Positions 8,601 to 63,062 of a stretch of 64,000 nt of DNA are shown piece by piece. Under the pieces are notes generated by a model. The model was not told the DNA's origin and did not search any database. It saw only the letters and a list, made by a program, of their open reading frames with translations. Location of the stretch: NCBI GenBank assembly GCA_037355855.1, contig CM074758.1, positions 4,561,001 to 4,625,000 on the forward strand, given 5' to 3'. The DNA is from Pseudo-nitzschia pungens. Lineage: Eukaryota; Bacillariophyta; Bacillariophyceae; Bacillariales; Bacillariaceae. How positions within the stretch are numbered: the first letter of the stretch is position 1; the number at the start of each line of letters is the position of its first letter. The position numbers and the translations under genes are program-made.

Positions 8601-9517
8601 TGAAGTGGAACTATGATGCAAGTGAAGTTGAAGTAAGCATGGATGGGTACGTGGAACAAGCCCTGAAAGAATTCAAACATGCCACGCCCAAACAGTTTTA
8701 CAAGGGACCATCAAAACACGTCCCACCCAACTATGGGGAGAAAGTTCAATTTGCAACTGTTGATGAGAGTGGGGAAGCTTCTCCAGAGATAGTCAAGTTC
8801 ATGCAAAAGGTCACCGGGAAGTTCCTATATTACGCACGAGCAGTTGACAACACCATGTTACATGCACTCAACGACATAGCGTCAGCCAAGAACACAAAAG
8901 CAGCCTATGATGCCACAGTCCATTTCCTGAACTATGCAGCAAGCAATCCCAACGGTAAAATAGTTTACAGGAGGAGTGGAATGATATTGAGAGTGGACAG
9001 CGATGCAGCATACCTTGTGAGTCCAGGGGCCAAGAGCCGTGCAGGTGGATATCACTTCCTTAGTGACAAGGAAGGAACAATATTCAATGGGCCAATTTTA
9101 GTGCTGGCAAAGATCATAAAGAATGTGATGGCGTCAGCAGCGGAAGCTGAGGTTGGGTCACTCTTCATGAATGCACAGGAGGCTATACCAATCAGACAGG
9201 CTCTCATTGAATTGGGACACGAGCAACCACCGACACCATTGAAGACAGATAACAGTACGGCGCAAGGCATCATAAATGGCACCATCAAACAAAAGAGATC
9301 CAAAGCGATTGACATGCGTTTTTATTGGTTAAAAGACCGGGCAGAGCAAGGACAATTCAAGGTATTCTGGGAACCCGGCAAAAACAATTTGGCAGATTAC
9401 CCAACCAAACACCACCCAGGAAGTCATCACCAAAAAGTACGTCCTATTTACTTGTATGATCGCAAGAAGAGCCCTAGAACCATCCAAGGGTGTGTTGAAA
9501 TATTAAACGAAAAATGA
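5663..9517 (+). CDS. pol: Copia Pol, probably made by UGA readthrough from Gag
   Basis: This is in the same frame as gag and separated from it only by the TGA at 5660-5662. No ATG occurs before the protease active site (LDSAATDHF, near 5812), so independent initiation is unlikely. Domains in order are: protease; pre-integrase and integrase core with D (ATDLPGRF), D (VRLDNE) and E (RANHAERAIQTF); reverse transcriptase with GDISNMYL, AWYGLKQSG and VVDDFG (a YVDD variant); and RNase H with VDSDAAYL, AEAEVGSL and KTDNSTAQGI. The stop at 9515-9517 lies 25 bases inside the 3' LTR. The total Gag-Pol product would be about 1821 residues. Confidence 0.9.
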   Translation, partial: RCWGEDKSHPVTTYKDALLTNLLPPSTPHHLGLAASRLPAASPTPRLGALDSAATDHFVPSTYVGPAHRPAGTHGIRVGCANGSTMQATATDELQLAALPPGARGCHKFDEVHLPLVSVPKLCDHGCTVTFQGSTVSVQDPSGTPLLSGHRDPLRNLFMVPIHDSAPPPASPRVKLPPAPQGATAANAYEIQPVQKLIQYLHAAAGFPVKSTWIHAITKGWFLGWPGLTADRVHKYLGPNVYTTKGHMKLIRQGIRSTKETVKPLGRGQRGPCRDLGAGLVTMTELQKGLKTHGILATDLPGRFPTTSSRGNKYILILYDFDSNYINAVPIKSREAVDLVAGFATCYDTLLAKGLTGRLVRLDNEISKNMIKYLTQQDLEYQLVSPGDHRANHAERAIQTFKDHFISILSGVDPNFPPTAWDHLIDQTVITLNLLRPSRYNKDISAYTQVHGMFDFNATPLAPLGCKVLIHNRADHRLAWEQRGTDGFYIGPALHHYRNYQCLADTGGVRTSNTVAFFPKCCELPRTSSTDKFNMILEDLHGLLQAPHPPTPYITHRTQVHEALHRIGDILKTAESPRVAPPVAPPRTQRHTAQRPHTPIPVGPPKKQRDRQQPDPETMLGQIIREKVPGANDREGRVTDYDPKTQEFKVEYLTGAPKHMCFDHIVTLRKTRQRFAPTNLRQHKGHKLLGMSAQELQYPPLGLQQPRHYACSGSIWDEELKKWAAYRDLVKHPNKEVRDLWLKSGEDEFGRLFQGFKPNGVEGMDVLDWIPRSSVPTHKQVTYPRYTVAIRPEKSDPHRTRITAGGDRLEYDGDVTTHTATLETIKVHWNSVISTPGAKYCTGDISNMYLCSKLDDAEYVRFKYEMIPPRIIQTYNLEGLVHHGYVYAKIKRAWYGLKQSGKIAHDDLVEHLDKHGYKKVPRTEGLFVHKTRDISFTLVVDDFGIKYTKQEDVDHLVNCVREKYPFKVDWDGKQYVGIHLKWNYDASEVEVSMDGYVEQALKEFKHATPKQFYKGPSKHVPPNYGEKVQFATVDESGEASPEIVKFMQKVTGKFLYYARAVDNTMLHALNDIASAKNTKAAYDATVHFLNYAASNPNGKIVYRRSGMILRVDSDAAYLVSPGAKSRAGGYHFLSDKEGTIFNGPILVLAKIIKNVMASAAEAEVGSLFMNAQEAIPIRQALIELGHEQPPTPLKTDNSTAQGIINGTIKQKRSKAIDMRFYWLKDRAEQGQFKVFWEPGKNNLADYPTKHHPGSHHQKVRPIYLYDRKKSPRTIQGCVEILNEK

Positions 9518-22900: not shown

Positions 22901-23460
22901 GGGTGGGTTGGTGCAGGTTGGGTCGGTGCTGGGGATGGTAGTGTAGGACGATGAGTGCGTCGAAAAGCAATGAATGCATCGGAATCGTAGTTGGCGAAGT
23001 CCAGGGAGGCATCCGGGCTGATGGTAGCGTTAAGGTGGTTCATGTATGCAGCAAGCGTATTGAGACGGAAGGCATGGCTGCGGGAAATGGAGACATGTTT
23101 TCCGTTGTCTTGATACTGGAAACAGGAGATGAGTTCAGCAGAGAGGAACCGGAATTCTAGCCAGGTAGTACAGCCGCCGAAGCGAAGCGCGTCACAGATG
23201 ATATCTCCGTCTTCAGTATGTATGTTGAGGAAGTGCCGAAGGATGTGTGTGACATGAGGGTCAAACGAGGGAAAGAAGTCACCGTCGTCGGTGGATGCAT
23301 CATTCGCCTCGTTGGTGGTCGTGCTTGCGTGATCATCGGACATCGTGTTCGTGTTCGTGTTGAATCGGGTGCGAGCTGCAGTTTCAATAGATTGGAAGGT
23401 ACGGTAAGTGTCTGCGTTGGTGTTAGGGAATGGAGCTCGTTGTCTGGTTTGGTATGGCAT
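16918..23460 (-). CDS. gag-pol: Single-frame Gag-Pol polyprotein, copia (CoDi-like)
   Basis: A 2180-residue frame starts at ATG 23460 with no internal stop. Residues 1 to about 720 are Gag, with strong similarity to the 716-residue Gag at 35631-37781 (shared blocks KRSHDVTVF, SSMSPGHPARLLADN, ARFDDPIACQSVTHLL). Protease follows with MIDRGANGCIIGRDA, an Asp-Arg-Gly variant seen in diatom copia. Next come integrase (GGSKMAQLFFGR region, LCDSGKYQ, HQNKFERRYQ) and reverse transcriptase (WGTDIGNAYLEAL, ALYGLRSSGK, YVATYVDDLCVC). RNase H closes the frame (FYDANLMHDILSG, ATFGAEFVAA, DNCADILTKHW). Unlike the element at 3786-9739 there is no stop between gag and pol. Confidence 0.92.
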   Translation of the reverse strand: MPYQTRQRAPFPNTNADTYRTFQSIETAARTRFNTNTNTMSDDHASTTTNEANDASTDDGDFFPSFDPHVTHILRHFLNIHTEDGDIICDALRFGGCTTWLEFRFLSAELISCFQYQDNGKHVSISRSHAFRLNTLAAYMNHLNATISPDASLDFANYDSDAFIAFRRTHRPTLPSPAPTQPAPTHPMNVHDLNSRTQPTSSSRFVKTDEQLKYENWIKRSHDVTVFDVLKNDTRFETWLTGFRAQLAAYDFDVDQFLNPEWDTSTLDGYHHKLFQKQCTFFWVLILRVLKSDLSLSCVQTHTHTMDGRAAYFEYIKLRASTFTQEFDIAKQTQTLQSLNLASWKESTVKFLTHWFDQYDLLCKMTAPKSPMQYHMLRTLLLNACAYDAHLSDQFSKVPLPSTSDLSQGNDTVHILNLKTTLLAEATRLDSRATLTLPTSRSTIRANLHEAFSFLDASELTDDFMDDVQTYAAFRASQPRKPDPSTRLPDSFWKSLTPEGMTLWRKMNPVDKRKFIAVLNPTKFPDLHSFSTPTTKPVGRKAYATDLLTGPYTAPASLPASTTFSDPSAFDDIANDASDDVANDASDALVTQWIARQHGSTPTGSFQELSKRHATTRQSQSSKPSGHTQLPLASSMSPGHPARLLADNKPKPPTQLVARMADGSSSVVARFDDPIACQSVTHLLQQHTSPHNWSACQHHTYCCSQGRFSTPNLAMIDRGANGCIIGRDATLISVDVPKRFVHVTGINNHQMQNIPIATAGAYCHSNRGPVILIFHECAYTGKHDSIISSAQLEAHHLTVDDKSIKSGGKQIISTPDGFVFPLSIQHGLPYLRMRKFTPAEYASLPHVIMTSDQFWDPTLLDHEYLASDPSFVTLYPDTLTDLPHPDIDLQGNPRNLKHRHPDSSTQFHTTLLNSGSCVHFHEFVNVPDIDNDGPSVSASAAGSFWLHDADYFHSELLARCAFTALQSHLEPSADVVSSSDDTLHATNRPRISVATPHDFAALKPFFAWIPIDRIHATFQNSTQYGSMPNSPDGNLFKRYKAPQPAMNVRPFNDDVLSDAIYCDTPAIDGGSKMAQLFFGRLSHIIHVEPMKTTGEFLSCFQNFVRTLGRPLRLLCDSGKYQASNRVLDYLRLLWIRLWQSEPYYQHQNKFERRYQTFLRTVNRVMDRTGTPPHLWFHCMQYIAGLLNHISDPTLHDRQPIFVATGTLGDISAYTAFFWFEPVYFKVDDSPFGSPTERFGHFVGLADHVGNAMTFSIWVPDTNKIVPRSNVRTALDASTRNQRAGSFTDDAFLAWRQHLNSSHLPTASGDTPSCTASDPPPVSPASSSVYRASDTYAQIDGKWQIVPIKHNYGEMGDAPFHQVVYTKDKTGTPRLESDFGDPELAYLDTSVSPADPSLDYIPDTGPSKVVLLDHDGNPVCNQHGELQTIDAIPPDDLIGRSFLISNPDGTRTRTTVVSILDKLQTNPDLIKFKCNHDNDTVDDVIAYNDIMNHIHRDETQEDGPLWAFRRILGHQGPLTHRHPDYKGSLYNLWVEWENMERTFEPLNIMAADDPVTVAQYAKEHNLLQTRGWKRLRRIVKLAKRTKQLERLTKQAKLRSFNTSPKYQYGFQVPNNHEEAVQLDIQNGNTKWQDAIKLEMQQLHDYDTFIDNGLFEASNIPSGYQQIKVHMIFAVKHDGRHKARLVANGNLTDVPLDSVYAGVVSLRGLRMCLFAAELNSLDAWGTDIGNAYLEALTSEKVCIKAGPEFGPLKGHMLLIHKALYGLRSSGKCFGDLLAACLIEQGFERSKNEAEIFMRPGVNKHGEPVYEYVATYVDDLCVCMSDPNQFLEVLQAEPYNFKLKGSGPMQFHLGCGFTRDKHGILCMDPSKFISKLETSYQQMFGCAPKTRAQSPLEENDHPELDTSDFLDEEDTKKYQSMIGSLQWLVTIGRFDIQTAVMTMSSFRAQPRQGHLERAKRIYGYVTKFKGFKIRFRTQAPELPVSASDNKSHDWSLSVYGECKEELPTDAPTPLGKPVVLNHFYDANLMHDILSGKAVTGILHFANKTPIMWFSKKQSTVETATFGAEFVAARTCIEQIVDLRQSFRYMGIPVKDTSFGWGDNEKQVLSASFPYARLHKRHNILTYHYVRGMIARGFINLQHIVGKDNCADILTKHWSHNSVYSLIKPIFNYEGNTGDLFIQD

Positions 23461-24747: not shown

Positions 24748-25824
24748 CCGGCACCACCCGATCGGAACACCCAATCGTTGCGTATGAATTTTGAAACAAA
24801 TAAGATTAGTGAGTACTGAAAAGGTTGCTTGCTGATGCCTTACAGCACGAGAAGAGGACAGACATTCTTGCTGCATGTCTCTAAGCCCTCCTGTTGCTCT
24901 TGCCCTTCTTGGGCGACTTGCCCTTCTTGGGCGACTTGCCCTTCTTGGGCGACTTGGTCTTCTTGGGCGACTTGGTCGGAGCTTTGGTGGGAGCCTTATC
25001 GCCGCAAATGCCGCCGGTGCTTCCCAGGGTAGTGCAAGCGGTGGTCTTGATCCAGTCCATGTTGCTGCTGGTTCGGGCGTACACATTGGGGATGTTGGCC
25101 TGGGCGCATCCCTTTGCAAAGGAGACCACACCCACGTGGGTATCGATGTACGTTCCATCGCCCTGTGCTGTTCGCACCACAATGGGACCACCCGAGTCGC
25201 CCTGGCAGACATCCTTTCCACCTGCAGCGTACATGGTACAAATCATCATGTCAAAAATGACTCCGCTTCCCCAAATGGGGTCGTAAGCGTTGCTGCAATC
25301 GGTGTTGCTGATAATCGGCAGGGTTACTTCCAGGAGATAGTCCGGAGACTTCTGTTGAAAGTTTTGTTCATTGCCGGTGTTCGCCAGAGTACCACCCATT
25401 CCCATGGCCTGAATATTGGTCCCGTCGACAGGGTACGTAGCATTTTCGTTGAGCACTAGTTTGTAGACGGACTCATCGATGGTGACCGGTGAGTCCAGCT
25501 TTGCGAGGGCAAAATCGTATTCCATGGTGTCTTTGTTGTACTTGTCATCGTTCACCCATTGGGTGTAGGATCGGACCTCGGTCGTTGCCACCGAATTGTC
25601 TGGCGGGTCTTCCTCAAATTTCCAAGCACTGACATACGCGTAGCCCACACCATTCCGGGCGGTGGTGCAATCCATGCAGTGTGCCGCGGTGAGGACGACG
25701 TCGGGAGTGATGAGGGCACCACCGCAAAACTCATCCCAATTGTCACCTTTTTCATCGTCGTAGTTACATTGCAAGTGAACAAAATAAGGGTAGGTGCCGG
25801 CAGCGGCTGTTGTACCGCCCACGA

Positions 25825-26184
25825 TGTTTGGAGGGCTCGTAAAACCGTGTAGATTTGTACAGTACGAGGTTTGAGTTTCTTAACTGTTTAATTACATTGT
25901 TAAATCCTGAGTATTTCGATTACTGAGTGAATGGTCCATTCTGTTGTTTATTTGATTGTTTCCTCTCTTACATGCATTCTCGTGTTATTCACTTTATTCT
26001 CTTTATTGCTGATTCACTTAATTCTCTTTCTTTGGTGATGACTCATCGGTCTTTCTCTATTTTGCAATGTCTCTAGTCCCGGTCATCTTTATTCCCGGCC
26101 CATATTCAATCAAGAGTCTTGTTCAATAGTCTTAGGAAGCATATCATATGTGTATATCGTATGTCCGAGTATCACGTCCAAACA
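25825..26184 (-). repeat. 3' LTR of the gag-only element in the protease gene
   Basis: 360 bp, TGTTTGGAGGGCTCG to CACGTCCAAACA on the plus strand. It is repeated at 29356-29715. Confidence 0.92.
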
Positions 26185-27405
26185 CACTACCCTGCTTCAA
26201 AGACTTTTGAATCACACTTCCTTCTTTAACGTTTCGCCACCAATCCTTTGGGCCTCTTCAGTTTATTGTTACGTCGTTAAATAATGTTTCAGTTACTTTT
26301 CAGTTACCGTCCGTATTCATTTGTATCATTTGCGTCGTTACATCTTCACACTTCTTGTATTGCTTCCGTTGTTAAGTCTTCGCACGTTCTGTCTCAAGTA
26401 CGTTATGTCTCAAACAATTGCGTTCGCTCAATCCTTAAACTCTTCAACTCTTCATCATCATATTCATTCAATGCTCAAACTCTTTGTAAATCTCTTTTCA
26501 TTTGTAATCTTTCCTTCCTGTTGCCAGTCAAGTGATCTTCATCGCATTCATCACTCGAACACTCATTTCCTATCAATCGATTCAATAATCAATCCTCCAT
26601 TTCAATTGTTGTCTTTCTTACAATCAGATCCGTCCACGTCGCAATCAGTCAGTTGCGCTTCCGTACAATCAGATTGCTCCATGTTACGATTGATCCGTAC
26701 AATCAGATTGTTCCGTGTTACGATCGATCCATTGCCACACAATCAAATCGCTTTATTATCATCTTACGACCGATCCGTTCGATCGATCCGATAACTCTTC
26801 ATTCAACCGTTATTGTTGCTTTGCTTTCAATATTCATTCGTTTCCATCAGTTCCTTTCATTCTTTTGCTTCTATAAACGCCACTCGATCGATCTGTATCA
26901 ATCCGTCTCTGTAAACTCCACGCGATCGATCTGTATCGATCTATCGATCCGCTCTCCTTAAATCGTTCAATCGTCTGCCGTTGATTCGTCCGCATCAAGC
27001 TTGATTCCGTATCCTGCTTAATTCCTTCAGCGATTCCGTATCCTGCTTCTGTTAATTGTTTCTCTTTAACTCTTCTGTATCTGTAAGAGTCAATTCTTCC
27101 GTATTCCATTTTCGTTCTGCACTCGATCGATCTGTGTCAATCGGTTAATTTCTTTCTCCAATAATTATTCCGTAATCTCCGTGTACATTCCTTTCTCCAA
27201 TAATTATTCCGTAATCGTTAATTCCTTTAATGCTTCCATTGATCGGCTTGTTCCTCCGTTCCATTGATCGGCTTGTTCCTCCGTATCATTTAGCTGCTTG
27301 TTTTTTCGTATAATTTCTCTGCTCTGTAACTTGCTTCGTAGTTCCTCTTCGTTGCGTCACCATTCCATTTGCCATTGAATCATCAAATCACCTCACTACC
27401 CTGAT
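26185..27405 (-). other. Non-coding 3' region of the gag-only element
   Basis: About 1.2 kb, strongly pyrimidine-rich on the plus strand, so purine-rich in the element RNA. No pol remnant is recognised. The first 100 bases after gag match those after the sister gag at 62407; beyond that the copies diverge. Confidence 0.6.
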
Positions 27406-28503
27406 TCAAAGGTATTGGAAGGCGAGTGCAACGCCGGTGAGCTCTGTATCGAGCTCTTGCGCAAATTTATCAGTAAGTTTAGACGTCCAGTTTGCGGGAC
27501 GTTGATTCTTATTTCTTTCAATTTCCCAACATTGGATCGTGGCATGTGGACCATCACATACAGCACATAGTGGTTTCACCTTTGGATTGTCGCTTGCCCG
27601 GAGTGGACAGTTCTTTGCAATATGCCCCTTCTCCTGACACCAGTGGCAAATTGTATCTTTTAACCAGGCCATTGCTGAGTGCGCTTTCCTATTGCCGCCG
27701 TTGCTGCTGCTGCCGTTGCCACCATCCCCATCTTTAAATTTGCCGTTGCTATTGTCATTAACATTGTTGATATCTGCGCCAAGGAGGCTCATATCATTAG
27801 GTCTGGGCTGACGTCCCTTCAAAACAATCACTGAATGTAAGTTGGTCGCCGTCGTCTCCAGCTTCTCCCAGATTTCATATATTGGTGTATCCGCGTCTCG
27901 TAAGTCATTTAACCTGGTTGTCAATGAGATCACCAGGTACTGCGGAACTCCACTGAGTAGTGTTGCAAATAACTCATCTTCTGATGGTTTGATTGTCTTG
28001 TACTGGTATTTCTGCATCAGTCCAAACAATCGTTCAAAAATTTCCTTCGGGGGATCCAATGCCCCCATCTTAACTGCCTTTAGATCCTTATCCAGTTGAA
28101 TCCTATCAGCTGTATCAGTTCGCCTGTACAGCTTGAACAGCTCGTCAAAAATTCGATGGACTCGGCCTCTTGGCCACTTCCGGACTATTTCCGCATTTTC
28201 TTCTGTCGTCGCTCCTCTATCCATCTTGGATTTCTCAATAATGGCATATCCCGTATTGTTGTTGTTGAATGCCGTATACAGATCGTTCAAAGCTTTGGTG
28301 TGCTTCTTCAATGCCTTCCTCTGCGCCTTCTCCATGGATGCGTACACTGTTGCTTCACCGTCACTTGGTAGATCTGGGTGTGGCTGTGTGCTCACTAACT
28401 CTGGGTACTTGCTCATGCTTGCGTGAGCTAGGAATTGGCGGAACCATCCTTCAAAATCCACGTCTCCTGTGTTCGTCAGCAAGGGAATTTTGAGGTACCC
28501 CAT
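27406..28503 (-). CDS. gag: Gag with two zinc knuckles, gag-only family, copy 1
   Basis: About 365 residues, starting at ATG 28503 (the in-frame GTG at 28515 is less likely). The body is capsid-like (DVDFEGWFRQFLAHASMSKYP, then RVHRIFDELFKLYRRTD). Near residue 295 a classical CCHC knuckle reads CHWCQEKGHIAKNC (CX2CX4HX4C), and a second reads CAVCDGPHATIQC (CX2CX3HX4C). The frame has no defect and matches the protein at 61228-62406 at most positions. Preservation of Gag in two diverged copies, both without pol, argues that Gag is functional. Confidence 0.85.
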   Translation of the reverse strand: MGYLKIPLLTNTGDVDFEGWFRQFLAHASMSKYPELVSTQPHPDLPSDGEATVYASMEKAQRKALKKHTKALNDLYTAFNNNNTGYAIIEKSKMDRGATTEENAEIVRKWPRGRVHRIFDELFKLYRRTDTADRIQLDKDLKAVKMGALDPPKEIFERLFGLMQKYQYKTIKPSEDELFATLLSGVPQYLVISLTTRLNDLRDADTPIYEIWEKLETTATNLHSVIVLKGRQPRPNDMSLLGADINNVNDNSNGKFKDGDGGNGSSSNGGNRKAHSAMAWLKDTICHWCQEKGHIAKNCPLRASDNPKVKPLCAVCDGPHATIQCWEIERNKNQRPANWTSKLTDKFAQELDTELTGVALAFQYL

Positions 28504-28515: not shown

Positions 28516-29355
28516 TTTGCTCCGTTAAATATATCCTTGTCCTTCTTCCGTCGATCGTCCGATAATAAAGCGCGACGCCGACTCGTTTGCTTCTTCTTTC
28601 AATCGTATCCGTATCCGCGGATAGATCCTTTCTGTTGTTCGATCGTATTCGTTTCTGCGAATAGATCCCCGTGTTTGTTCTGTTTTCTTCTGCGATTGTT
28701 CGTCGAATCAAATCGCCTGCAAGACCAAATTCTTTCGTTGGTCCAATATCTTTCTTTCGTTGTTTGTCGTATTTTCTTATTCTTCTTCTTCCAATCGTGC
28801 TCGTCTCAGCGAGTCGATCCTGATCGTATTCGGCGCGTTTGCTCTCCAGAATAGATCCGTGGCTGATCAATGCCACCTGCAAGACTGGCTTTGTACCTCT
28901 TGGTCTGCTCCCTTAGTCCACTGCAATCTTATCCACTTGGATAGACCCAAATCGTATCCGTGCCACGTTCTATGCTCCGGATAGATCTGCTGACAATCAA
29001 ATCGTATTCGTCTTCAGCGAATAGATCCTTGTTATCGTTGTTGTTGTTCTTCAATCGTATTCGGCTCTTTCTTCTCCGAATAGATCCTTGTTATCGTTGT
29101 TGTTGTTCTTCAATCGTATTCGGCTCTTTCTTCTCCGAATAGGTCCTTGTGATTCGTTTATCACCTGCAAGACTGAGGTCCTTTCCCGTCAGTCCAATTC
29201 GTAATCGGAATTCAATATTCTTCTCTTCTGCAATCGTATCCGCGCTTCGTTGTTTCGTTGTTTCGCAGATAGATCATTCGACGTTCTTGCTCTCGCCTCG
29301 TGTACTGATCTCTCGTCTTTACAAAGCGCTCCTCGAGATAAAATTCTTCGAAGAA
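28516..29355 (-). ncRNA. Structured 5' leader of the gag-only element, copy 1
   Basis: On the element strand the leader contains repeated stem-loops of the form GATCTA + stem + loop + stem + TACGATT, as in copy 2 (60350-61130). On the plus strand they appear as CGTATCCG...CGGATAGATC and CGTATTCG...CGAATAGATC. A 58-base unit with one such hairpin is duplicated at about 29029-29145. The leader begins with the 12-nt palindrome TTCTTCGAAGAA at 29344-29355, next to the 5' LTR. Confidence 0.6.
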
Positions 29356-29715
29356 TGTTTGGAGGGCTCGTAAAACCGTGTAGATTTGTACAGTACGAGG
29401 TTTGAGTTTCTTAACTGTTTAATTACATTGTTAAATCCTGAGTATTTCGATTACTGAGTGAATGGTCCATTCTGTTGTTTATTTGATTGTTTCCTCTCTT
29501 ACATGCATTCTCGTGTTATTCACTTTATTCTCTTTATTGCTGATTCACTTAATTCTCTTTCTTTGGTGATGACTCATCGGTCTTTCTCTATTTTGCAATG
29601 TCTCTAGTCCCGGTCATCTTTATTCCCGGCCCATATTCAATCAAGAGTCTTGTTCAATAGTCTTAGGAAGCATATCATATGTGTATATCGTATGTCCGAG
29701 TATCACGTCCAAACA
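29356..29715 (-). repeat. 5' LTR of the gag-only element in the protease gene
   Basis: 360 bp, no difference seen from 25825-26184. CACGA follows at 29716-29720, after which the protease coding sequence resumes. Confidence 0.92.
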
Positions 29716-29808
29716 CACGATGGCGTGCTCGGGACCGGCGTACACGGGGGAGGCGAGTGCTGCCGCCGCCAGAAAGGCACGGACGAGAGAAGTTTTCATG
29801 TTCACCAT

Positions 29809-31231: not shown

Positions 31232-31352
31232 AAGGGAGCTACTTGACTGGTTACATCAAGAATAACTGTCAAGATTGCTCCCGCTGAACGAACAGTAACC
31301 CTCCTTTGGTCTCAGCCTCGTTGCACTCGGCTTTGACTTCAGGGGGATTGCA

Positions 31353-31534
31353 GTGTGAAATCTCCTGTAACCTGGGCGCTAGTTCCTGTGTAATCAGAAG
31401 TAATCACCCTCTGCCCTATAGAAAAACTATTGTGTGCGCAGTCGTTTGCGGGCACAATAGTTTTTCTATAGGGCAGAGGGTGATTACTTCTGATTACACA
31501 GGAACTAGCGCCCAGGTTACAGGAGATTTCACAC
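31353..31534. repeat. Near-perfect 182-bp palindrome
   Basis: The arms are about 80 bases each and appear identical (GTGTGAAATCTCCTGTAACC on the left, its exact complement on the right), around a loop of about 20 bases near 31437-31456 (TGCGCAGTCGTTTGCGGG). Translations of the two strands are almost the same over the region, which confirms the symmetry. It is probably a fold-back/MITE element. Confidence 0.8.
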
Positions 31535-31629
31535 CGCGTGCGAGCAACTCGACAGTTATTTAACATAGCTACTTTGGTTCCATTGTTTTGTTAGCAACCA
31601 GAATATCTTATATAACTGACCTGCTACAA

Positions 31630-32330
31630 GTTGGGGTATGTACTAGATCTGGTGGTACAAATCCCACAAGAAGGACCCAGGATCTTGTATAGCATCTTGT
31701 CTAGCATCCTGTCTAGTAGTGTGGTCCCACCACCTACCCCAGTACATCAGTTCCATCTATCATCTGTTAGCACCCTGTACATCTTATGATATGGGGTTGC
31801 TAAGAGTTGGGGTATGTAGATCTGGTACAAATCCTACTAGAGGGGCCCAGCATCTTGTCTAGCATCATCTGTTTGGTGTCCTCCTTTTCTTCTACAGGTC
31901 CTTCTATATCTTTGTAGCACCCTGTATGCCTTAGTTAGTATAGTAATCCTGGGCTGCTAAGAGCTAGTACTAGGGTATGTAGATCTTGTACAAATCTTAC
32001 TAGAGGGACCTAGCATCCTGTCTAGTATCCTGTCTAGTATCCTGTCTAGCATCCTGTCTAGCATCCTGTCTAGCATCCTGTCTAGCATCCTGTCTAGCAT
32101 CCTGTCTAGCATCCTGTCTAGCATCCTGTCTAGCATCCTGTCTAGCATCCTGTCTAGCATCCTGTCTAGCATCCTGTCTAGCATCCTGTTTTGTATCTAC
32201 CCCTCTATTCTACTAGTATGGTTCCTTCTATATATTAGCAAGCTGTATATCTTGTACTAGTGCAGCAGGACTGATAAGAGCTGGCATATGTACTAGCCAT
32301 GGTACATCAGCATATCTATCTTACTCCACA
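31630..32330. repeat. Minisatellite cluster with three diverged higher-order units
   Basis: Units starting with GGGGTATGTA-type sequence near 31633, 31808 and 31973 share GTACAAATC(C/T)(C/T)AC, AGCATC(C/T)TGTCTAG and CACCCTGTA blocks. In the last unit the 12-mer TAGCATCCTGTC expands to about 15 tandem copies (32011-32189). A diverged unit of the same kind lies at 33035-33200 beyond the LTR. No coding function is supported; the open frame through the array is a repeat artefact. Confidence 0.7.
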
Positions 32331-52088: not shown

Positions 52089-54851
52089 CTAGAAAGAGGT
52101 GTTCGCGCTTGGATTCGCGCTTGGATTCGCGCTTGGCTTCAGGCTTGGCTTCGCGCTTGGCTTCAGGCTTGGCTTCGCGCTTGGCTTCAAGCTGGGCTTT
52201 GCGCTTGGCTTCAGGCTGGGCTTGGCGCTTGGCTTCAGGCTGGGCTTTGCGCTTGGCTTCAGGCTGGGCTTCGCGCTTGGCTTCAGGCTGGGCTTCGCGC
52301 TTGGCTTCAGGCTGGGCTTCGCGCTTGGCTTCAGGCTGGGCTTCGCGCTTGGCTTCAGGCTGGGCTTCGCGCTTGGCTTCAGGCTGGGCTTCGCGCTTGG
52401 CTTCAGGCTGGGCTTCGCGCTTGGTTTCAGGCTGGGCTTCGCGCTTGGCTTGAGGCTGGGCTTCGCGCTTGGCTTCAAGCTGGGCTTCGCGCTTGGCTTC
52501 AGGCTGGGCTTCGCGCTTGGCTTCAGGCTGGGCTTCATGCTTGGCTTCACGCTTGGCTTCGCGCTTGGCTTCAGGCTGGGCTTCGCGCTTGGCTTCAGGC
52601 TGGGCTTCGCGCTTGGCTTCAGGCTGGGCTTCATACTTGGCTTATCACTTGGCGCGACACTGGGCTTCGCGCTTGGCTTCAGGCTGGGCTTCATACTTGG
52701 CTTATCACTTGGCGCGACACTGGGCTTCGCGCTTGGCTTCAGGCTGGGCTTCGTACTTGGCTTATCACTTGGCGCGACACTGGGCTTCACACTTGGCTTC
52801 ATGCTTGGCTTGTCACTTGGCTTATCACTTGGCGCGACACTGGGCTTCACACTTGGCTTCATGCTGGGCTTCATACTTGGCTTATCACTTGGCGCGACAC
52901 TGGGCTTCACACTTGGCTTCATGCTGGGCTTCGTACTTGGCTTATCACTTGGCGCGACACTGGGCTTCACACTTGGCTTCATGCTGGGCTTCATACTTGG
53001 CTTATCACTTGGCGCGACACTGGGCTTCACACTTGGCTTCATGCTTGGCTTGTCACTTGGCTTCATACTTGGCTTATCGCTTGGCTTCATGCTGGGCTTC
53101 ATACTTGGCTTATCACTTGGCGCGACACTGGGCTTCACACTTGGCTTCATGCTGGGCTTCATACTTGGCTTATCACTTGGCGCGACACTGGGCTTCACAC
53201 TTGGCTTCATGCTGGGCTTCGTACTTGGCTTATCACTTGGCGCGACACTGGGCTTCACACTTGGTTTCATGCTAGGAACCACGCTGGGCACACCGCTCGG
53301 GGTAGCACTTGGAGACAAACTGGGCACACCGGATGGAGAAACACTGGGGACACCGGATGGGGAGGTCGAAGGAATGGAACTTGGAACCATGCTTGGTGCA
53401 ACAGTGGGTTTGGAAGAAGGAGCCGTACTTGGGGATGCGCTCGGAGAAACTGAAGGTGAGGCGGAAGGAGAAGCACTTGGAGAAGCAGAAGGAGCCTGAC
53501 TTGGGACATCGGATGGCGCCTCACTTTGAGCGATTGCAATCGCTGGTGGCTCTTTCCCTGTCGCTGCTCTAAAGATATCTCCAATGTTTCCTGAGAGAAT
53601 GTCGGCTTCAAGCTGTGCTTTGATGAGTAAAGGGTCAGTTCCGGCCGCAGACTGTTTCTTGGACCACTCTATGAAGACGTCGAAGCACACATTAGTACTA
53701 CCTACGTCGGCACAAACACGAATGGTGACCTCAACGCTAACTGTTGTGGCCAATCTCCTTGCGTCTGTTGACCCCAATCTCCTTCTCGCTACAGATGTTG
53801 CAACCGCTGTGAAATCAGCTTCAACAGTATCGGCGGTTGTGCCAGCCGGGTAGTCGGCCTCGAGGATAGTAGCGGCAGCGGAAGTTTCGGTGGGAGCCAT
53901 CGAGGGAGAAGCGGATGGCGACGCGGAAGGCGATGCAGAGGGTGATGATGATGGAGCATCACTGACACTGGGAGCATTTGAGGTGGACGGGGCATTACTG
54001 AGACTGGGACTGGCACTGGGATATTCGGATTTGGACGGGGCATTACTGAGACTGGGACTGGCACTGGGTGCAACAGACAGGGTTGGACTGACCGATGGGC
54101 TTTGACTGGGAATTGAAGATGGTGTGTCGGACGGGCTTTGACTGGGAATTGCCGATGGTGCGTCGGATGGGCTTGCACTGGGAATTGCCGATGGTGCGTC
54201 GGACGGGCTTGCACTGGGAATGTATGATGGTACGTCGGATGGAACTGTGCTTCCGCCTACGAGTGTTGGGGATGCACTCGGAGTAGCCGATAGGGGTTCA
54301 AAGCAGGCACCACATTTCGCGGGGCAATAATGTAAAACTTTCTTCTTTTTATAGGCCTTTTTGCGACACAGGCTTGTATCGATGTCCGCGCATTTGGTGC
54401 TTACACCCTTGAAGTTGAACGAGACCGCGTCCGTGCAGGAACAACTCAAGTTACAGGAAGCGGGACAACTATCTTTGACCAGCATGTTGGTTGTGCTATC
54501 CGTCTTGTCGCATCGGCCATTTTGATTTGCTGCGGCCCAGGAACAATCCTTGCTATCATCGTTGTTGTATCGAAAATCGGGGTCGTCACCTTGCTCGCAG
54601 TTGCGTGGGTAAGCACACTTTTTGGTGCAGGTGAGGGGGCAGTAGTGAAAGACCCTCTTACCAGTTGTTTTGTCCTTGATATTACATCTGATTCTACTTC
54701 TTTTCTGTGCTGCCCAACTGCAGTCCTTCTTTTCCTTGCCGTTCAAACGGAATGAGGCATCATCTTCACAAAAATTAAGCTCATCTGCCCGCGACGGGAT
54801 TGCTCCCAGCACGACAGACAGAGCGACGACAATAAGCAGCGTCAATTTCAT
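52089..54851 (-). CDS. Secreted Cys-rich (ShK-like) and Pro/Ser/Lys-repeat protein
   Basis: The chosen start is ATG 54851, giving 920 residues with signal peptide MKLTLLIVVALSVVLGAIPS. A TTTTACAG just upstream may be a splice acceptor in the 5' UTR. Three Cys-rich modules follow (DCSWAAQKR ... HYCPLTC; DCSWAAANQ ... SCPASC; KCADIDTSLC ... HYCPAKCGAC), resembling ShK-type folds. Then come PSxxPS spacers, a globular domain of about 120 residues (ATILEADYPAGTTADTVEAD ... IEWSKKQSAAG), more PS repeats, and about 360 residues of Lys-Pro-Ser repeats: a 20-residue unit with VAPSDKPS, then an 8-residue unit LKPSAKPS. It is probably cell-wall or surface located; the Lys/Ser spacing (KxxxK) invites comparison with silica-associated proteins. 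Confidence 0.8.
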   Translation of the reverse strand: MKLTLLIVVALSVVLGAIPSRADELNFCEDDASFRLNGKEKKDCSWAAQKRSRIRCNIKDKTTGKRVFHYCPLTCTKKCAYPRNCEQGDDPDFRYNNDDSKDCSWAAANQNGRCDKTDSTTNMLVKDSCPASCNLSCSCTDAVSFNFKGVSTKCADIDTSLCRKKAYKKKKVLHYCPAKCGACFEPLSATPSASPTLVGGSTVPSDVPSYIPSASPSDAPSAIPSASPSDAPSAIPSQSPSDTPSSIPSQSPSVSPTLSVAPSASPSLSNAPSKSEYPSASPSLSNAPSTSNAPSVSDAPSSSPSASPSASPSASPSMAPTETSAAATILEADYPAGTTADTVEADFTAVATSVARRRLGSTDARRLATTVSVEVTIRVCADVGSTNVCFDVFIEWSKKQSAAGTDPLLIKAQLEADILSGNIGDIFRAATGKEPPAIAIAQSEAPSDVPSQAPSASPSASPSASPSVSPSASPSTAPSSKPTVAPSMVPSSIPSTSPSGVPSVSPSGVPSLSPSATPSGVPSVVPSMKPSVKPSVAPSDKPSTKPSMKPSVKPSVAPSDKPSMKPSMKPSVKPSVAPSDKPSMKPSMKPSDKPSMKPSDKPSMKPSVKPSVAPSDKPSMKPSMKPSVKPSVAPSDKPSTKPSMKPSVKPSVAPSDKPSMKPSMKPSVKPSVAPSDKPSDKPSMKPSVKPSVAPSDKPSTKPSLKPSAKPSVAPSDKPSMKPSLKPSAKPSVAPSDKPSMKPSLKPSAKPSLKPSAKPSLKPSAKPSVKPSMKPSLKPSAKPSLKPSAKPSLKPSAKPSLKPSAKPSLKPSAKPSLKPSAKPSLKPSAKPSLKPSAKPSLKPSAKPSLKPSAKPSLKPSAKPSLKPSAKPSLKPSAKPSLKPSAKPSLKPSAKPSLKPSAKPSLKPSANPSANPSANTSF
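52099..53270. repeat. Coding tandem repeats, 24-bp and 60-bp periods
   Basis: GGCTTCAGGCTGGGCTTCGC-type 24-bp units (52100-52620) and 60-bp units with TTATCACTTGGCGCGACACT (52630-53250) encode the Lys-Pro-Ser tail. Near-identity among units points to recent homogenisation. Confidence 0.9.
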
Positions 54852-57060
54852 ATTTGTTTGAACCACCTGTAAAAGGAAGTCGAGGCCAATCGTGTAAAAT
54901 TTGGAAAGGATAGGACTAGATGAGAGAACCATACAAAGGAGATAATCCGTCGACGAAGGTTCGCCTCGACGACAGCACCCTTTGGCTTCCCGACTGCCTC
55001 CCAATCGTGCATCACATCGATTCAGCAACAAACCAAATTTCTATTTTGATTCCAGGACGGGTGGCGGGAGGGGCGTCGTTTGGTTTGCATCGGGGTGTGT
55101 TTGTGCTCGGTGCCGTCGATTGGTTGCTGTCCTTAACAGAAAGAAAGCATTCGTCGGTCACCGTCGACAGACGCATCATGTTGTCATCCGAGGAACTTTT
55201 GCGATGATTGATTGATGAATTAATTAATTACGTAGTAAATAATTCATTCATTCATTCGATCTTCCGACGATGCTGCCCCAACCTCCGAGAAAAGACTTCG
55301 GTTGTCTCTATCGGTCAGCGGCAGTCCGCGGTCTTCGAACCGTATAGTTTCGTTTGTCCATCAACATCAACAGCAGCAGCAGTAGCAGCAGCAGTAGCAG
55401 CAGCAGCATCACGTCAAAACAATCATAACAAACACCACAGAACTAGTCCACGTACCAGACGGAGAAATTGCTTTTCAACAATTTATTGGATTGGAAATTT
55501 GATTTTATGAGGTGTGCCAACCTGTACTGTTCAAAGCGTCGCGACAGTGATGTATTGTTCTTTATGCATTGGAGCGAGTATATCACAGGTGCAGTGTCGT
55601 GTTGGATTGTCACTTCTTGCTTTGGTGCGGTGAAAAACGCAAATTGGAGGAATTTGGCAAAAAGAGATACAAAAACGTCGACGACATTCGTGGAAACTTC
55701 TTTGGAACCAGACTCCCGCTGTTACCGATTGAACCGTCGTCCGTCGCCGAAAAGTTTTCCACACTGCGAGGGTCGTAGACGATGGAATCATCCACTGTAA
55801 ATCTATGACTGAAGTGACTGAGTCATTGTAGGATGAATAAGCCTCAATCAACGATGACCATAAACTCGAGAATTTTGATATCGTGACCTCTACCGGTAAG
55901 GTACTCGTGGGAAGGAATAGTACACAAACACGTCAAGACTGCCTCCAAACGTAACCTTAAGGTTACTTGTACGTGTGACGTATTGAATACTTTTGCGGTA
56001 GGTCGTGTTCCGAACACTGAGGATTTCCAGTACACAAGACACGTGAACACGGGTACAATACCGTAGGCAGGGGTGACCGTAGGAAATGTACATAGGAGTA
56101 ACTTACCTGCTACCAAACGTTCGGGTATTTACGTGTAGTCGTAGAGAACAAACAAAAAATACGATAATACGTAGAAATACGTACGTACGAAATATTTGAA
56201 ATTTTTTATAAAAAAATTATTATTGATTCTGAAAATATCCGAGAGATTTGACAATGATGCGGGTAAGATAGTTAAATAACAAAGAGTATCCAAAAGATAA
56301 ACCTCAATCTTGGTTCGTCTTGAAGGACGAAAAAGTAAGCTTACGAGTATCGTAGTCACAGTCGTAACTTACGGTTCTTTATTTTATGCGCTCCAACTTT
56401 CTGGCCCCCTACCGGTACTGAAGAGTAAGTAAGCCTTACTTTGTTCTCAATGGTTACAGTGAGATCTTAGCACATTACTTAATGTACTGAATCTCGCGAT
56501 TATTTTATTTTTGACGTTTGCCGAATATTTTTCCCGAGTTCATCAAGTGTTCGGTTTTCCATCCAAAACACTGGAATTGCCAAAAAAATGAATTTACGAA
56601 AGTTAATGAATTTATCTGCTAAGCCTTACCAGTACCGTACAAGTTCTAGGTTCGCATATATTTTTTGTAGTTCATAGTTACGGAGTTGCATTATTCCGGC
56701 AACAAAAAAGTCAAAAACGTGACGAAAAAGCCGATCAACGACGATCTGTAACACCGTTGCTCTACGGTACAACTTTTTTTCGGGGCTCGTGAAAATACTA
56801 TGCACCACCAGTTTCGAGCAAGATCCAAACATCATAAGGTTACCGAGGTATCCTACCGTATCAGCAGGGCAATGCATCGAATTTGTAAAGAATTGATAAT
56901 AATCTATTACGACGGAAGTAATCAATGTTTTTTATCAATTGCACTACCGGTATTGGCACAGTAAGTTGGTAGTTTGCAATAGCGTTTTTGAACCTACAAA
57001 ACGGTACTAGATACCACCAGGGTAAAATACGGCATCTCAAAAAAAACTTTACTGTGGAAA
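54852..57060. other. Intergenic region
   Basis: No convincing gene. The first 300 bases would carry the promoter and 5' UTR of the secreted protein. A CAG-rich tract is at 55360-55415. From 55860 the DNA is AT-rich with TACCGGTA and AAGGTTACTTGTACG motifs. Several frames of about 100 codons at 55460-55850 overlap on both strands and show no family features. Confidence 0.4.
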
Positions 57061-58810: not shown

Positions 58811-59849
58811 AGTAGCTGAACTGTTGGGGTGCTTTTGCGAATTTCGTCATTATCATCATCATCATCATCATCATTAAATAATCATAAATCCCAATCATTA
58901 TAGTTTTCGTTTTCGGTTTTGATTTCGGTTTTGATTTCGTTTTTGATTTCGGTTTTGATTTCGGTTTTGTTGTTATTGTTATTGTTGTCGTTGCTGTTGT
59001 TTTCGTTCGTTCCGTTTTCGCTTCGTCCAGACCGCGTGCGCCACCATTCCGTTGGCCAGAGCCCTCGCCTCGAATCCCCAGTGGGCCGGAATGTCGCCCT
59101 CGAAGCGCTTCGGGCCAAAGGTCCGGTCCTGCGCGACGACGACGCCCCCGAAATCCACCAGGTCCATGTGCTCCGGCGTCTCGGTCCGAAACCACTCCCG
59201 GGCGGCTCGATTGAGCTCCTCGGAGCCCCTCCCCTCGTCGGCGACCTCCTCCTGGCTCGGCCCGATCGTCTTGACCAGGACCAGCAGGTCCGGTCCCGAG
59301 ACGACGCGCAGGGCGTCGAGCGCACGGATCTGGCGTTCCTCCTTGGTCGTGTTTGTGGTCGTGTTTGTGGTGGTCACGGGTTGGGGGTTGCAGTTTTCTT
59401 TCACGACCTCCCAGATCCCCAGGGACAGGACCAGCACCGTGTAATTGCTTCGGATCGTGGCCGCGGTGGTTTCTTGCTGGATCCAATCCGAGACCCTATC
59501 GAAACAGACGAATTTTGTGTAATCGAATTTTCCAATCGCAAAGGGATCGTCGCTGTCGCTGTCGCTGTCGTCGGAAGTGTTGTTGTTGTTGTTGTTGTTG
59601 TTGTTATTGTCGGCGTCGGAAGTGTTGGTGCTTCCGATCTCGCACCCCGATCCGGTCCCGTAGACCTGCGCCATTTCCACAAACTGCACCCCGCCGGCGC
59701 AGGGATACCAGCACTCCTTTTTCGGTTTCGGGGTCCGTCGCGGGCAGTGGTGCGGGGCTTCCTCGGGATTGTAGACCGACGATAGGCCGTTGCTTATGTA
59801 CCTGTTGACCTCGGAGAGGGGGACGTTGTTTGGGTTTTTCGCGCTCACC

Positions 59850-60275
59850 TGTTTGGACGTGACATCCAGATGTGATATGTGCACTTATGATATGCTTCGT
59901 AAGACTATTGAATATGGACATAAGACCATTGAATATGGACCGGGAATGAGAATATGAATGACCGGGACTAGAGACATGAGGGATTACCACTTACTTGAAG
60001 GGACATTACCAAGGTTACTAAAAATAGGACTCTAAGTACCGAGTCTACAGTGCATTAAGTATAAATACACGGGCTCTAGTAGACTCGTGTACAGAAGGTT
60101 AATTGTGTGGATAAGAATAAGAACAGGAAACAAGAGATGAGAATGGAGAATCGATGGTCTGAATGATCATCTCAGTAATCGAAATACTCAGGATTTAACA
60201 ATGTAATTAAACAATTAAGAAACTCAAACCTCGTACTGATACAAATCTACACGATCTTTCAGAGCCCTCCAAACA
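59850..60275 (+). repeat. 5' LTR of the one-LTR gag-only element
   Basis: 426 bp, diverged from the 360-bp LTRs of the sister copy but with the same ends. The palindrome TTCTTCGAAGAA (60276-60287) follows, as at 29344-29355. Confidence 0.8.
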
Positions 60276-60349
60276 TTCTTCGAAGAATTTTATCTCGTTA
60301 GGGGAGCGCTCGAAAGACGAGAGACCAGTACAGTGGGGGAGAGAGTATC

Positions 60350-61130
60350 GACTGATCTATCCGTCAACGACGAAACGACGGATACGATTGCAGAAGAACG
60401 TTGATCGATTTATCCGCAGTGCGAAATAAGGAAACGACGAAACGCGGATACGATTGCAGAAGAGAAGAATATTGAATTACGATTACGAATTGGACTGACG
60501 GGAAAGGATCTCAGTCTTGCAGGTGATAAATGAATCACAAGGATCTATTCGGAGAAGAAAGAGCCGAATACGATTGAAGAACAACAATGATAACAAGGAT
60601 CTATTCGCTGAAGACGAATACGATTTCATTATCAGCAGATCTATCCGGAGCATAGAACGTGGCACGGATACGATTTGGGTCTATCCAGGTGGATAAGATT
60701 GCAGAGTGGACTAAGGGAGCAGACCAAGAGGTACGAAGCCAGTCCTGCAGGTGGCACTGATCAGCCACAGATCTATTCCGGAGAGCAAAACAAAGCACCG
60801 AATACGATCAGGGTCGACTTGCTGAGTCAAGTACGATTGCAGAAAGAAAGAATAAGAAAATACAACAAAAAACAACGAAAGAAAGATATTGGACCAACGT
60901 GAAAGAATTTGGTCTTGCAGGCGATTTGATTAAACGAACAATCGCAAACAAACAAAAAAAAAAAACAGAACAAGAAGCAGAAGGATCTACTCGCTGAGAC
61001 GAGTACGATTGACAGAAGAAAAGATACATTTGGACCAACGAAAGAATTTGGTCTTGCAGGCGATTTGATTCGAAGCTGATCAATCGCAGAACAAATACGA
61101 AAGGGTCTATCCGCGGAAACGGATACGATT
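60350..61130 (+). ncRNA. Array of covarying stem-loops in the gag-only element leader
   Basis: At least ten hairpins share GATCTA or GGTCTA before the 5' arm and TACGATT after the 3' arm, yet have different, always complementary arms: 60358-60365/60377-60384, 60411-60417/60444-60450, 60546-60552/60564-60570, 60602-60607/60615-60620, 60642-60647/60665-60670, 60682-60687/60690-60695, 60817-60821/60828-60832, 60988-60993/61000-61005, 61108-61113/61120-61125, and one bulged at 60774/60798. Between them lie four modules of two more hairpins joined by TTGCAG (GGACTGA/TCAGTC then GTGAT/ATCAC at 60492-60538; others at 60708-60768, 60891-60945, 61032-61087). A packaging, dimerisation or translation role is inferred. 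Confidence 0.7.
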
Positions 61131-61227
61131 GAAAGCAGAAGCAAACGAGTCGGCGTCACGGTTTATTGTCGGACGATCGACGGAGGAAGGACAAGGACAT
61201 ATTTGATAGAGTGAGGTGACGAGCAGC

Positions 61228-62406
61228 ATGGGGAGGTACAGCATAATTCCCAAGCTGATGAACACAGGAGACGTGGATTTTGAAGGATGGTACCGACAAT
61301 TCCTAGCTCATGCAAGCAGGTGCAAATACCCAGAGTTAGTGAGTTCGGATCCACACCCTGATCTACCAAGCGACGGTGAAGCAACAGTATATGCGTCCAT
61401 GCGGAAAGAACAGCGGAAGGCATTGCGGAAGCACACCAAAGCTTTGGACGATCTGTATTCGGCATTCCACAATAACAATACGGGGTATGCCATTATTGAG
61501 AAATCCAAGATGGATAGAGGAGCGACGACAGAAGAAAATGCGGAAACAGTCCGGAAGTGGCCAAGAGGCCGAGTCCATCGAATTTTTGACGAGCTGTTCA
61601 AGTTGTACAGGCGAACTGATACAGCGGATAGGATTCAACTGGATAAGGATCTAAAGACAGTTAAGATGGGGGCATTGGATCCCCCGAAGGAAATTTTTGA
61701 ACGATTGTTTGGACTGATGCAGAAATACCAGTACAAGACAATCAAACCATCAGAAGATGAGTTATTTGCAACACTACTCAGTGGAGTTCCGCAGTACCTG
61801 GTGATCTCATTGACAACCAGGTTAAATGATTTACGAGACGCGGATACACCAATATATGACATCTGGGAGAAGCTGGAGATGACGGCCACAAACTTGTACA
61901 ATTCAGTGATTGTTTTGAAGGGACGTCAGCCCAGACCTAATGATATGAGCCTCCTTGGCGCGGATATCAACAATAGCAATAACAATAGCGACGGCGGATA
62001 TGATGTTGGTGATGGTGATGGTGAAAACAGCAGCAGCAAAGGCAGCAACAGCAACAGCAAAGGCAGCACCACCGACGAACGAGGTGGAAGGAGCAAGAGC
62101 AGTAACGGCGGCAATGGGAAAGCGCACTCAGCAATAGCCTGGTTACAATATACAATCTGCAATTGGTGCCAGGAGAAGGGGCATATTGCAAAGAACTGCC
62201 CACTCCGGGCAAGCGACAATCCAAAGATAAAACCATTATGTGCTGTATGCGAGGGCATCCATGCCACAATACAATGTTGGGAAATTGAAAGAAATAAGGA
62301 TCAACGTCCAGTAAACTGGACGTCTAAACTCACTGCTAAGAAATTTGTGGAGCAGGAGCTTGATACGGAGTTCACCGGCATCGCACTCGCATTCCAATAC
62401 CTTTGA
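61228..62406 (+). CDS. gag: Gag with two zinc knuckles, gag-only family, copy 2
   Basis: About 392 residues from ATG 61228 (an in-frame GTG lies 12 bases upstream). It is closely similar to the protein at 27406-28503, with a longer Ser/Asn/Gly-rich linker before the knuckles. The knuckles read CNWCQEKGHIAKNC and CAVCEGIHATIQC. The frame is intact although the element has lost its 3' LTR. Copy 1 and copy 2 differ at scattered sites mostly without breaking the frame, as expected under selection on Gag. Confidence 0.85.
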   Translation: MGRYSIIPKLMNTGDVDFEGWYRQFLAHASRCKYPELVSSDPHPDLPSDGEATVYASMRKEQRKALRKHTKALDDLYSAFHNNNTGYAIIEKSKMDRGATTEENAETVRKWPRGRVHRIFDELFKLYRRTDTADRIQLDKDLKTVKMGALDPPKEIFERLFGLMQKYQYKTIKPSEDELFATLLSGVPQYLVISLTTRLNDLRDADTPIYDIWEKLEMTATNLYNSVIVLKGRQPRPNDMSLLGADINNSNNNSDGGYDVGDGDGENSSSKGSNSNSKGSTTDERGGRSKSSNGGNGKAHSAIAWLQYTICNWCQEKGHIAKNCPLRASDNPKIKPLCAVCEGIHATIQCWEIERNKDQRPVNWTSKLTAKKFVEQELDTEFTGIALAFQYL

Positions 62407-63062
62407 ATCAGGGTAGTGAGGTGATTTGACGATTCAATGGCAAATGGAATGGTGATGCAACGAAGAGGAACTAAGGAAATTAAAGAGCGGCAAGTTACAG
62501 GAAGTTACAGAAGCACAGAGCGTAGAAGCATTAATGAAACGGAAGAATCACGGAATTAACGAATGCGGAACAATTAACAGAAGCCGAATACGCGATAAGG
62601 ATACAGAAAGTAGGGAATGATGATACACACCGTGGTGTACATGGTTTGCATGTCCTGCCGGGCCGTCGAGTCTCCGATCCAGAGGGTGTTTTCCGTCGCA
62701 AAGAGGCGCTGGATCTTGCTTCCGCTCAGCGACGGAATGTTCGGCGGGGGAATCCAGAGATTGCCGTTCATGGAGTACCAGTTATCGGTGTTGTTTCGAT
62801 CGATTTCGTACAAGTAGGAATAGGAATAGGAATTGCTGTCGGAATTGCTGCCGCTTCGTCCAGCGGTTGCGGTTGCGAATGCGGTTGAAGTTGCGCTGTA
62901 CCACTCCGAGAGCCAGGTGGCATCGGGAGTGATCGCCGAGTCGCTCCGCAGGAGCACCAAGCCGAACGCCACCAAGGATATCAAAACCCATTCTCCTTTC
63001 GCGTTTGATCGATTTTTGCGGGGGTTGGTTTCGTGGCGGACGATGATTCTTTTCGCCTTCAT

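Follow-up and report, generated by a model that had tools for sequence, protein, structure and literature searches.

The leaders of a Copia-type LTR family in Pseudo-nitzschia pungens carry up to about 14 hairpin modules each, upstream of the Gag gene. Pairing within the hairpin units has been preserved by paired changes, both between tandem units and across copies, and the array occurs in members of four kinds: gag-only, gag-pol, gag-broken, and gag-less. We propose, with moderate confidence, that the array is a multivalent cis-acting RNA region that most likely serves recognition by the predicted Gag and packaging. The analysis covered the window, which is the whole stretch of 64,000 nucleotides, and a genome of 66.9 Mb in 28 contigs.

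Two window copies and their hairpins

Two copies of the element lie in the window, a right-hand copy and a sister copy on the opposite strand. Their parts are as follows.

59850..60275, + strand: 5' LTR of the right-hand copy (TGTTTGG...CCAAACA), from the sequence
60276..60287, + strand: perfect 12-nt palindrome adjoining the 5' LTR, from the sequence
60276-61227, + strand: leader of the right-hand copy
61228..62406, + strand: Gag ORF of 392 aa with a CCHC zinc knuckle, from the ORF list and Pfam matches below the curated cutoffs
25825..26184, - strand: sister 3' LTR (BLAST pair 25824-26187, trimmed by eye)
27406..28503, - strand: sister Gag ORF (ATG at 28501-28503 by reading; ORF listed from a GTG at 28515)
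28600..29275, - strand: sister array of ten A hairpins, from the covariance model
29356..29715, - strand: sister 5' LTR, identical to the sister 3' LTR (BLAST pair 29355-29718, trimmed by eye to TG...CA)

Neither window copy contains pol. The Gag of the right-hand copy gave a weak Copia-type gag match and a CCHC knuckle match, both under the Pfam curated cutoffs. No second LTR was found for this copy within the window. Forty-six genome matches to the LTR query (59848-60276) were among the matches listed.

The modules of the right-hand leader are of two types. A-type hairpins lie on the Gag-sense strand, and B modules consist of two hairpins around TTGCAG or CTGCAG.

60354..60390, + strand: A1 hairpin, 8 bp (stem count; model E value, 5.3e-08)
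60407..60456, + strand: A2 hairpin, 7 bp, with a long loop (stem count and model)
60493..60516, + strand: B1a hairpin (stem count; missing from the minimum-energy fold of L031)
60523..60538, + strand: B1b hairpin (stem count and restricted covariation test set)
60542..60576, + strand: A3 hairpin, 7 bp (stem count, restricted covariation test set, and model)
60598..60626, + strand: A4 hairpin, 6 bp (model; one covarying pair, E value of 0.04, possibly between paralogous units)
60638..60676, + strand: A5 hairpin, 6 bp (stem count and model)
60678..60701, + strand: A6 hairpin (stem count and model; the innermost counted pair would leave a 2-nt loop)
60708..60745, + strand: B2a hairpin (stem count and restricted covariation test set)
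60751..60768, + strand: B2b hairpin (three adjacent covarying pairs, E values of 0.0, 0.003, and 0.003 with 400 null runs)
60770..60810, + strand: A7 hairpin with a bulged pyrimidine (stem count and model)
60812..60839, + strand: A8 hairpin (stem count and model; missing from the minimum-energy fold of L031)
60892..60945, + strand: B3 double hairpin (stem count and restricted covariation test set)
60984..61011, + strand: A9 hairpin (stem count and model)
61033..61087, + strand: B4 double hairpin (stem count; second stem missing from the minimum-energy fold of L031)
61104..61131, + strand: A10 hairpin (stem count and model)
60618..60866, + strand: array core common to gag-pol relatives (79-81% identity to L078-L080)

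When a covariance model built for the A unit was run over 72,054 bases, comprising the window and four loci, it returned 21 matches with E values of 1 or less. Twenty of these had E values below 0.01, and all 20 fell inside the two leaders, ten at 60354-61131 on the plus strand and ten at 28600-29275 on the minus strand; the remaining match had an E value of 0.48. The matches are partly recoveries, because the model was trained on units of the same family, some of them from the window. The claims that the right-hand leader holds ten such hairpins and that the sister element has the same kind of array both agree with these counts. The A-unit helix has a conserved base (UAU paired with AUA) between the flanks GAUC and CGAUU, and its upper stem is variable. 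Its loops range from 4 to more than 30 nt, the longest with nested hairpins, and have no common motif. The flanks had been described as constant, but GGTC precedes A6, A8, and A10, TAAGATT follows A6, and TACGATC follows A7. A fourfold A-B-C order had also been described; by reading, there are four B modules in the right-hand leader, but the order recurs only loosely. A search of 59800-62600 against Rfam gave no family match, the one hit being a minus-strand match inside gag with an E value of 0.72, far under the gathering score.

Hairpins that keep pairing through paired changes

For the comparison between units, units were chosen by their flanks only, and pairing was not used for the choice. 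This sample held 222 instances from 38 leaders (112 distinct instances and 78 distinct arm pairs). Pairs 3 to 6 were complementary in 243 of 312 cells, whereas dealing the 3' arms among the units gave a mean of 201.2 (standard deviation, 5.2) and a maximum of 222 in 5000 shuffles. Over pairs 3 to 7, sliding the 3' arm by one base lowered pairing from 0.71 to 0.50 (-1) or 0.41 (+1). The excess over dealt arms supports the earlier claim of compensatory change in a selected RNA structure. Pairing was 99.1% in 18 units preselected as clean-looking, a value biased by that choice.

Pairing was then counted across copies on a structure of 109 pairs drawn on L031. The gag-only set comprised 19 nonidentical leaders of the gag-only group, including the gag-broken L069 and the gag-less L074; the tree tests on this group left out L045 and L070, and the identical duplicates L040 and L047 were dropped. 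A 34-row set added 15 gag-pol leaders, with L052 and L060 dropped. Leaders L041, L042, L071, L073, and L075-L077 were used in no test. In the tree-aware null, the same substitutions were moved among stem columns on the same tree, starting from the inferred ancestor. The gag-only set had 1472 of 1512 stem cells paired, compared with a null maximum of 1411 in 1000 runs. There were 52 cells with a change on each side (null maximum, 25) and 13 pairs with a double change (null maximum, 9). Compensatory change thus extends across copies, with paired cells and double-change cells both above the null maxima. The number of further pair types in the 19 leaders showed no excess (32 versus a null mean of 32.8). 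In the 34-row set, 2056 of 2140 cells were paired (null maximum, 1888), with 82 double-change cells (null maximum, 55) and 20 double-change pairs (null maximum, 11). When the A6 pair that leaves a 2-nt loop was excluded, the paired cells were 1462 of 1493 in the gag-only set and 2045 of 2106 in the 34 rows. The arms had been said always to pair; they do so mostly, in 97.4% of cells across copies, but not always. Because likeness among several of the 19 rows reaches 98-99%, the row number overstates the independent evidence; the tree-aware null takes this likeness into account.

Covariation of individual column pairs gave a mixed result. A restricted test, run with our own R-scape-like script on the proposed pairs only and with 400 null runs, found 4 of 109 pairs at an E value of 0.05 or less in the gag-only set: three neighboring pairs in B2b and a single pair in A4. 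The A4 result may reflect a comparison between paralogous units. With the gag-pol leaders included, 1 of 97 pairs was significant. An unrestricted scan of all column pairs in 34 leaders found none at an E value of 0.05 or less. The division of gag-only from gag-pol leaders shaped most of its ranking, in which the three adjacent B2b pairs stood second and about twenty-first. Covariation across family copies, which the sequence-only reading had put forward as a check with R-scape, was significant with our script for a few proposed pairs but not in the unrestricted scan.

One alternative is that a single ancestral inverted repeat was copied in tandem, so that pairing was inherited rather than selected. 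Self-matches within the leader reach 86-97%, some units are clearly duplicates, and unit number varies between copies as whole blocks, all of which duplication would produce. However, the arms differ between units and yet match within units, beyond the match of dealt arms, and the paired changes exceed a null that itself starts from the inferred ancestor. Simple duplication without compensatory changes, the case that had been set against the original claim, is contradicted by this within-unit matching, and we consider it extremely unlikely as an explanation of the pairing.

Folded without constraints, the L031 leader had a minimum-energy structure that contained 90 of the 109 proposed pairs; this structure lacked B1a, A8, and B4b and had four of the six pairs of A6. 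Fold energies were compared with dinucleotide shuffles for four sequences. Positions 60350-61130 fell below their shuffles on both strands (z of -4.3 sense and -3.1 antisense), and the sister leader gave z values of -3.3 sense and -1.5 antisense. The controls gave -1.8 and -1.5 for the LTR and -1.3 and -1.5 for the first 780 nt of gag. These predicted energies favor the sense strand in both leaders folded. Leaving aside one sterically impossible pair, standing G-U cells outnumbered A-C cells by 54 to 11 in the gag-only set and by 104 to 22 in the 34 rows. Branch changes that left a Watson-Crick pair went to G-U rather than A-C in 19 versus 15 cases in the gag-only set and in 30 versus 15 cases in the 34 rows. 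The argument for the sense strand, and so for RNA, is moderate, and with these branch counts it is mainly one of the persistence of G-U states.

The same counts bear on whether the repeat acts instead as DNA, as a cruciform or a protein site. The near equality of G-U and A-C branch changes in the gag-only set would suit a DNA role, as would the low antisense energy of the window leader. The standing G-U excess in both sets and the 34-row branch events speak against it, as does the lower z of the sense strand in both leaders folded. A DNA role is very unlikely.

Members that carry the array

An exact pattern of the two commonest A stems, too narrow to catch units of other types, gave 60 listed sites in the genome, 30 per strand, whereas a backwards control gave none. 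By coordinates, all 60 listed sites lie inside leaders of the hairpin-array family. The A model gave 249 matches over 43 loci, which by reading of the table lie on the Gag-sense strand of family elements. A Gag protein search of the genome listed 92 matches, including about 20 gag-only copies. Seventeen further matches, at 64-75% identity, lay in open frames of 423-1814 aa, six of which were at least 1763 aa; these 17 copies were called gag-pol by Gag type and frame. Both gag-pol ORFs tested (L079 and L080; 1812 and 1807 aa) matched RVT_2 at 8.8e-32. These two elements have LTR pairs of 286 and 289 bp, each 100% identical.

The gag-pol leaders are about 410 nt long and include the array core. 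Leader positions 343-591 of the window copy were 79-81% identical to L078-L080, and L030, a gag-pol copy by Gag type and frame, had a leader match of 84%. The dS between the Gag of L030 and nine gag-only Gags was 2.0-3.2. As judged from the sequences, the common leader core would reflect either strong constraint or exchange by recombination between families. Among ten Gags (the nine gag-only Gags and L030), the median dN/dS was 0.28 over 44 overlapping pairs, and gag looks constrained on this measure. The array had been attributed to a gag-only family. It is indeed carried by gag-only copies, but the limit is too narrow, because longer-frame relatives, with RVT_2 in both of the two tested, carry the array core.

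Target-site duplications of 5 bp, called by eye, and identical or near-identical LTR pairs were found in L081, L082, L083, L086, and L087, and the same layout was seen in L089, L090 (the sister copy of the window), L091, and the gag-pol elements L079 and L080. The family thus has both marks of the Copia superfamily, RVT_2 in a coding member and an LTR pair with a short duplication. L083 consists of LTR, leader, Gag, and LTR, with an ORF of 367 aa. It and the sister copy have the TR-GAG layout of LTRs, one Gag ORF, and no Pol, and L079 and L080, with their identical LTR pairs, are candidate autonomous partners that might trans-mobilize these TR-GAG-like copies. The more distant Gag loci L075-L077 and the locus L071, which holds 500 N letters, gave no A-model match.

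Unit number differs among members. At an E value of 0.02 or less, the model counted 10 A units in L031, L032, L033, L044, L047, and L048; 9 in L035 and L072; 4 in L034, L036, L037, and L051; and 3 in L041 and L042, two copies with a Gag start similar to that of the gag-pol type. Gag-only and gag-less members had 4-10 A units per copy, mostly 7-10, a range that overlaps the 2-6 of the 17 gag-pol leaders, in which nested units, undercounted by the model, are common. A stricter script found 3-9 units in 21 gag-only leaders and 1-6 in 17 gag-pol leaders, with 0.005 units per leader in 200 shuffles.

A units persist, at 7-9 per copy, where the Gag start or the whole of gag is missing. L086 (contig C1) and L087 (C7) are 100% identical over an element of 3,614 bp, lie in different flanks with different 5-bp duplications (ACTAT and TAGGT, by eye), and have nine A units each. 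They lack an ATG-started Gag N terminus, and their longest Gag-frame ORF is 271 aa. Two insertions with a common Gag defect indicate that the element moved without supplying whole Gag, although L086 and L087 could still make a C-terminal piece of Gag that includes the knuckle. L081 and L082 consist of LTR, array, and LTR with no gag. Their longest ORFs are 55 and 46 aa, their LTRs are 98.9% and 100% identical, their duplications are AAGAT and ACCCG (by eye), and they carry eight and seven A units. The deletions may postdate insertion, because the gag-deletion junction of each was found once.

Seven Gag protein homologues were found, all named jgi/Psemu1 at their source, which we take to be Pseudo-nitzschia multiseries. 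Six peptide patterns found no Gag in viral contigs. The sole match to the array pattern in the viral collection, L085, was rejected as chance; it has no LTR, leader, or gag match, and its ORFs presumably resemble those of tailed phage. At L088 (C7:3633500-3643499), two gag-only copies with identical leaders lie about 4 kb apart among three evenly spaced LTR matches, as if arranged LTR-gag-LTR-gag-LTR.

Candidate roles of the array

The sequence-only reading had raised internal translation initiation as one role. The L031 leader holds 2 AUG, compared with a mean of 17.8 in dinucleotide shuffles, none of 400 being as low. There were 11 AUG in 14,247 nt of 17 gag-only leaders and 3 in 6,326 nt of 15 gag-pol leaders. 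In the gag-less L082, the first 740 nt contain 4 and the remaining 686 nt contain 26; L081 has 2 in 648 nt. Part of the shortage may reflect the repetitive makeup of the leader, because L031 is also poor in CAT, the reverse complement of ATG (4 versus 12.4, with none of 150 shuffles as low). Internal initiation is disfavored because the leaders are AUG poor, and the array is kept where the Gag start or gag is gone. More broadly, the array could work in Gag translation by slowing, shunting, or internally recruiting ribosomes, with packaging signals elsewhere. Its place upstream of Gag suits such a role, and AUG-poor leaders fit scanning; however, the avoidance of AUG is adverse to internal recruitment, though it may be partly compositional, and 7-9 units are retained in copies that lack the Gag start or gag. 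A role in Gag translation is fairly unlikely.

Under the packaging proposal, an RNA-binding protein, most likely the zinc-knuckle Gag of the family itself, would dock once on each A unit. The array would bring several Gag molecules together on the RNA of the element, and RNA bound in this way would be selected for packaging and reverse transcription. Ribosomes would most likely reach the Gag AUG by scanning through the array. Contact would be made with the conserved helix base and the flanks rather than with the loops. A zinc knuckle reading GGAG loops was considered and rejected; because the loops span 4 to more than 30 nt without a common motif, the data do not suggest it. Packaging signals of RNA viruses often have a common loop motif. 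By computation, the leader contains structured RNA close to the 5' LTR, as retroviral-type packaging signals do.

The data fit export, dimerization, and protection as well as they fit packaging. The array might thus serve another RNA step, namely nuclear export of unspliced RNA, dimerization, or protection against decay, and a host protein may take part in it. The facts that favor packaging favor this reading equally, nothing speaks specifically against it, and a palindrome adjoins the LTR. Repeated RNA motifs for export occur in retroviruses, as in the constitutive transport element. We regard such a step as possible, though doubtful. In L055 and L056, two gag-pol copies, both arms of the post-LTR palindrome are altered and palindromy is kept; the palindrome could signal dimerization or unusual priming. 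The palindrome at 60276-60287 occupies the expected tRNA primer site, and 67 tRNA places were listed.

An extension of the packaging proposal is that the array is an expandable multivalent packaging code. Hairpin number would then be a heritable dose that sets how RNAs compete for common Gag particles, and nonautonomous members would have gained units over gag-pol elements in an arms race run through copy number. We offer this as speculation and think it unlikely.

We know of little work on LTR-element packaging outside yeast and retroviruses. In the parts of the literature consulted, Ty1 packaging needs map to the 5' end, and the minimal trans-mobilized Ty1 element consists of 380 nt from the 5' end plus 357 nt from the 3' end (PMC4974528). 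Ty1 and Ty3 have a structured 5' region, and LTR-adjacent sequence is enough in cis for trans-mobilization (PMC4974528); the likeness to the present family is the structured 5' leader. The 5' fold of Ty1, the best-known packaging region of an LTR element, is described there as compact and as containing a pseudoknot, in contrast to the repeated array found here. In RNA viruses, multiple packaging signals on one RNA promote assembly (PMC6281560), a likeness of multiplicity. The viral signals are dispersed according to that account, whereas the hairpins here are clustered in the leader, with a conserved base and flanks and variable loops.

Plant TR-GAG elements have LTRs around a single Gag ORF and related gag-pol elements in the same genome, as is the case here (PMC8704663, citing Chaparro et al. 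2015). They are described in plants, and the sections of PMC8704663 consulted do not mention a hairpin array, which is a feature of the Pseudo-nitzschia family. The CoDi elements of diatoms are of Ty1/copia type, like the family here, and some have tandem CCHC fingers in Gag (PMC2806351); the words "hairpin" and "untranslated" each occur 0 times in the main text of that paper. We found no description of a tandem hairpin array in an LTR-element leader in the open-licence literature, although absence there is no proof. The gag-only layout (TR-GAG) and cis-acting 5' leaders (Ty1 and Ty3) are known, and the tandem hairpin array would be new. The cis needs of LTR-element RNA become directly testable in this family, because it offers many natural unit sequences with paired variation together with elements stripped to LTRs plus array. 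An array that gag-pol, gag-only, and gag-less members have in common would also show how elements that parasitize other parasites remain compatible with the helpers they need.

Elsewhere in the window, further retroelement coding lies at 1965-3791 and 16918-23460. One of these frames has RVT_1 and RNase H together with a weak match to an integrase zinc-binding domain; the other, of 2180 aa, has RVT_2. A frame of 1252 aa at 5759-9517 has a partial RVT_2 match. Positions 31350-31537 hold a 91-nt inverted repeat with a 6-nt spacer and 97% complementarity, positions 32010-32189 hold a 12-bp tandem repeat in 15 copies matching at 98%, and a frame of 980 aa at 52089-55031 contains PT disordered repeats (PF04886).
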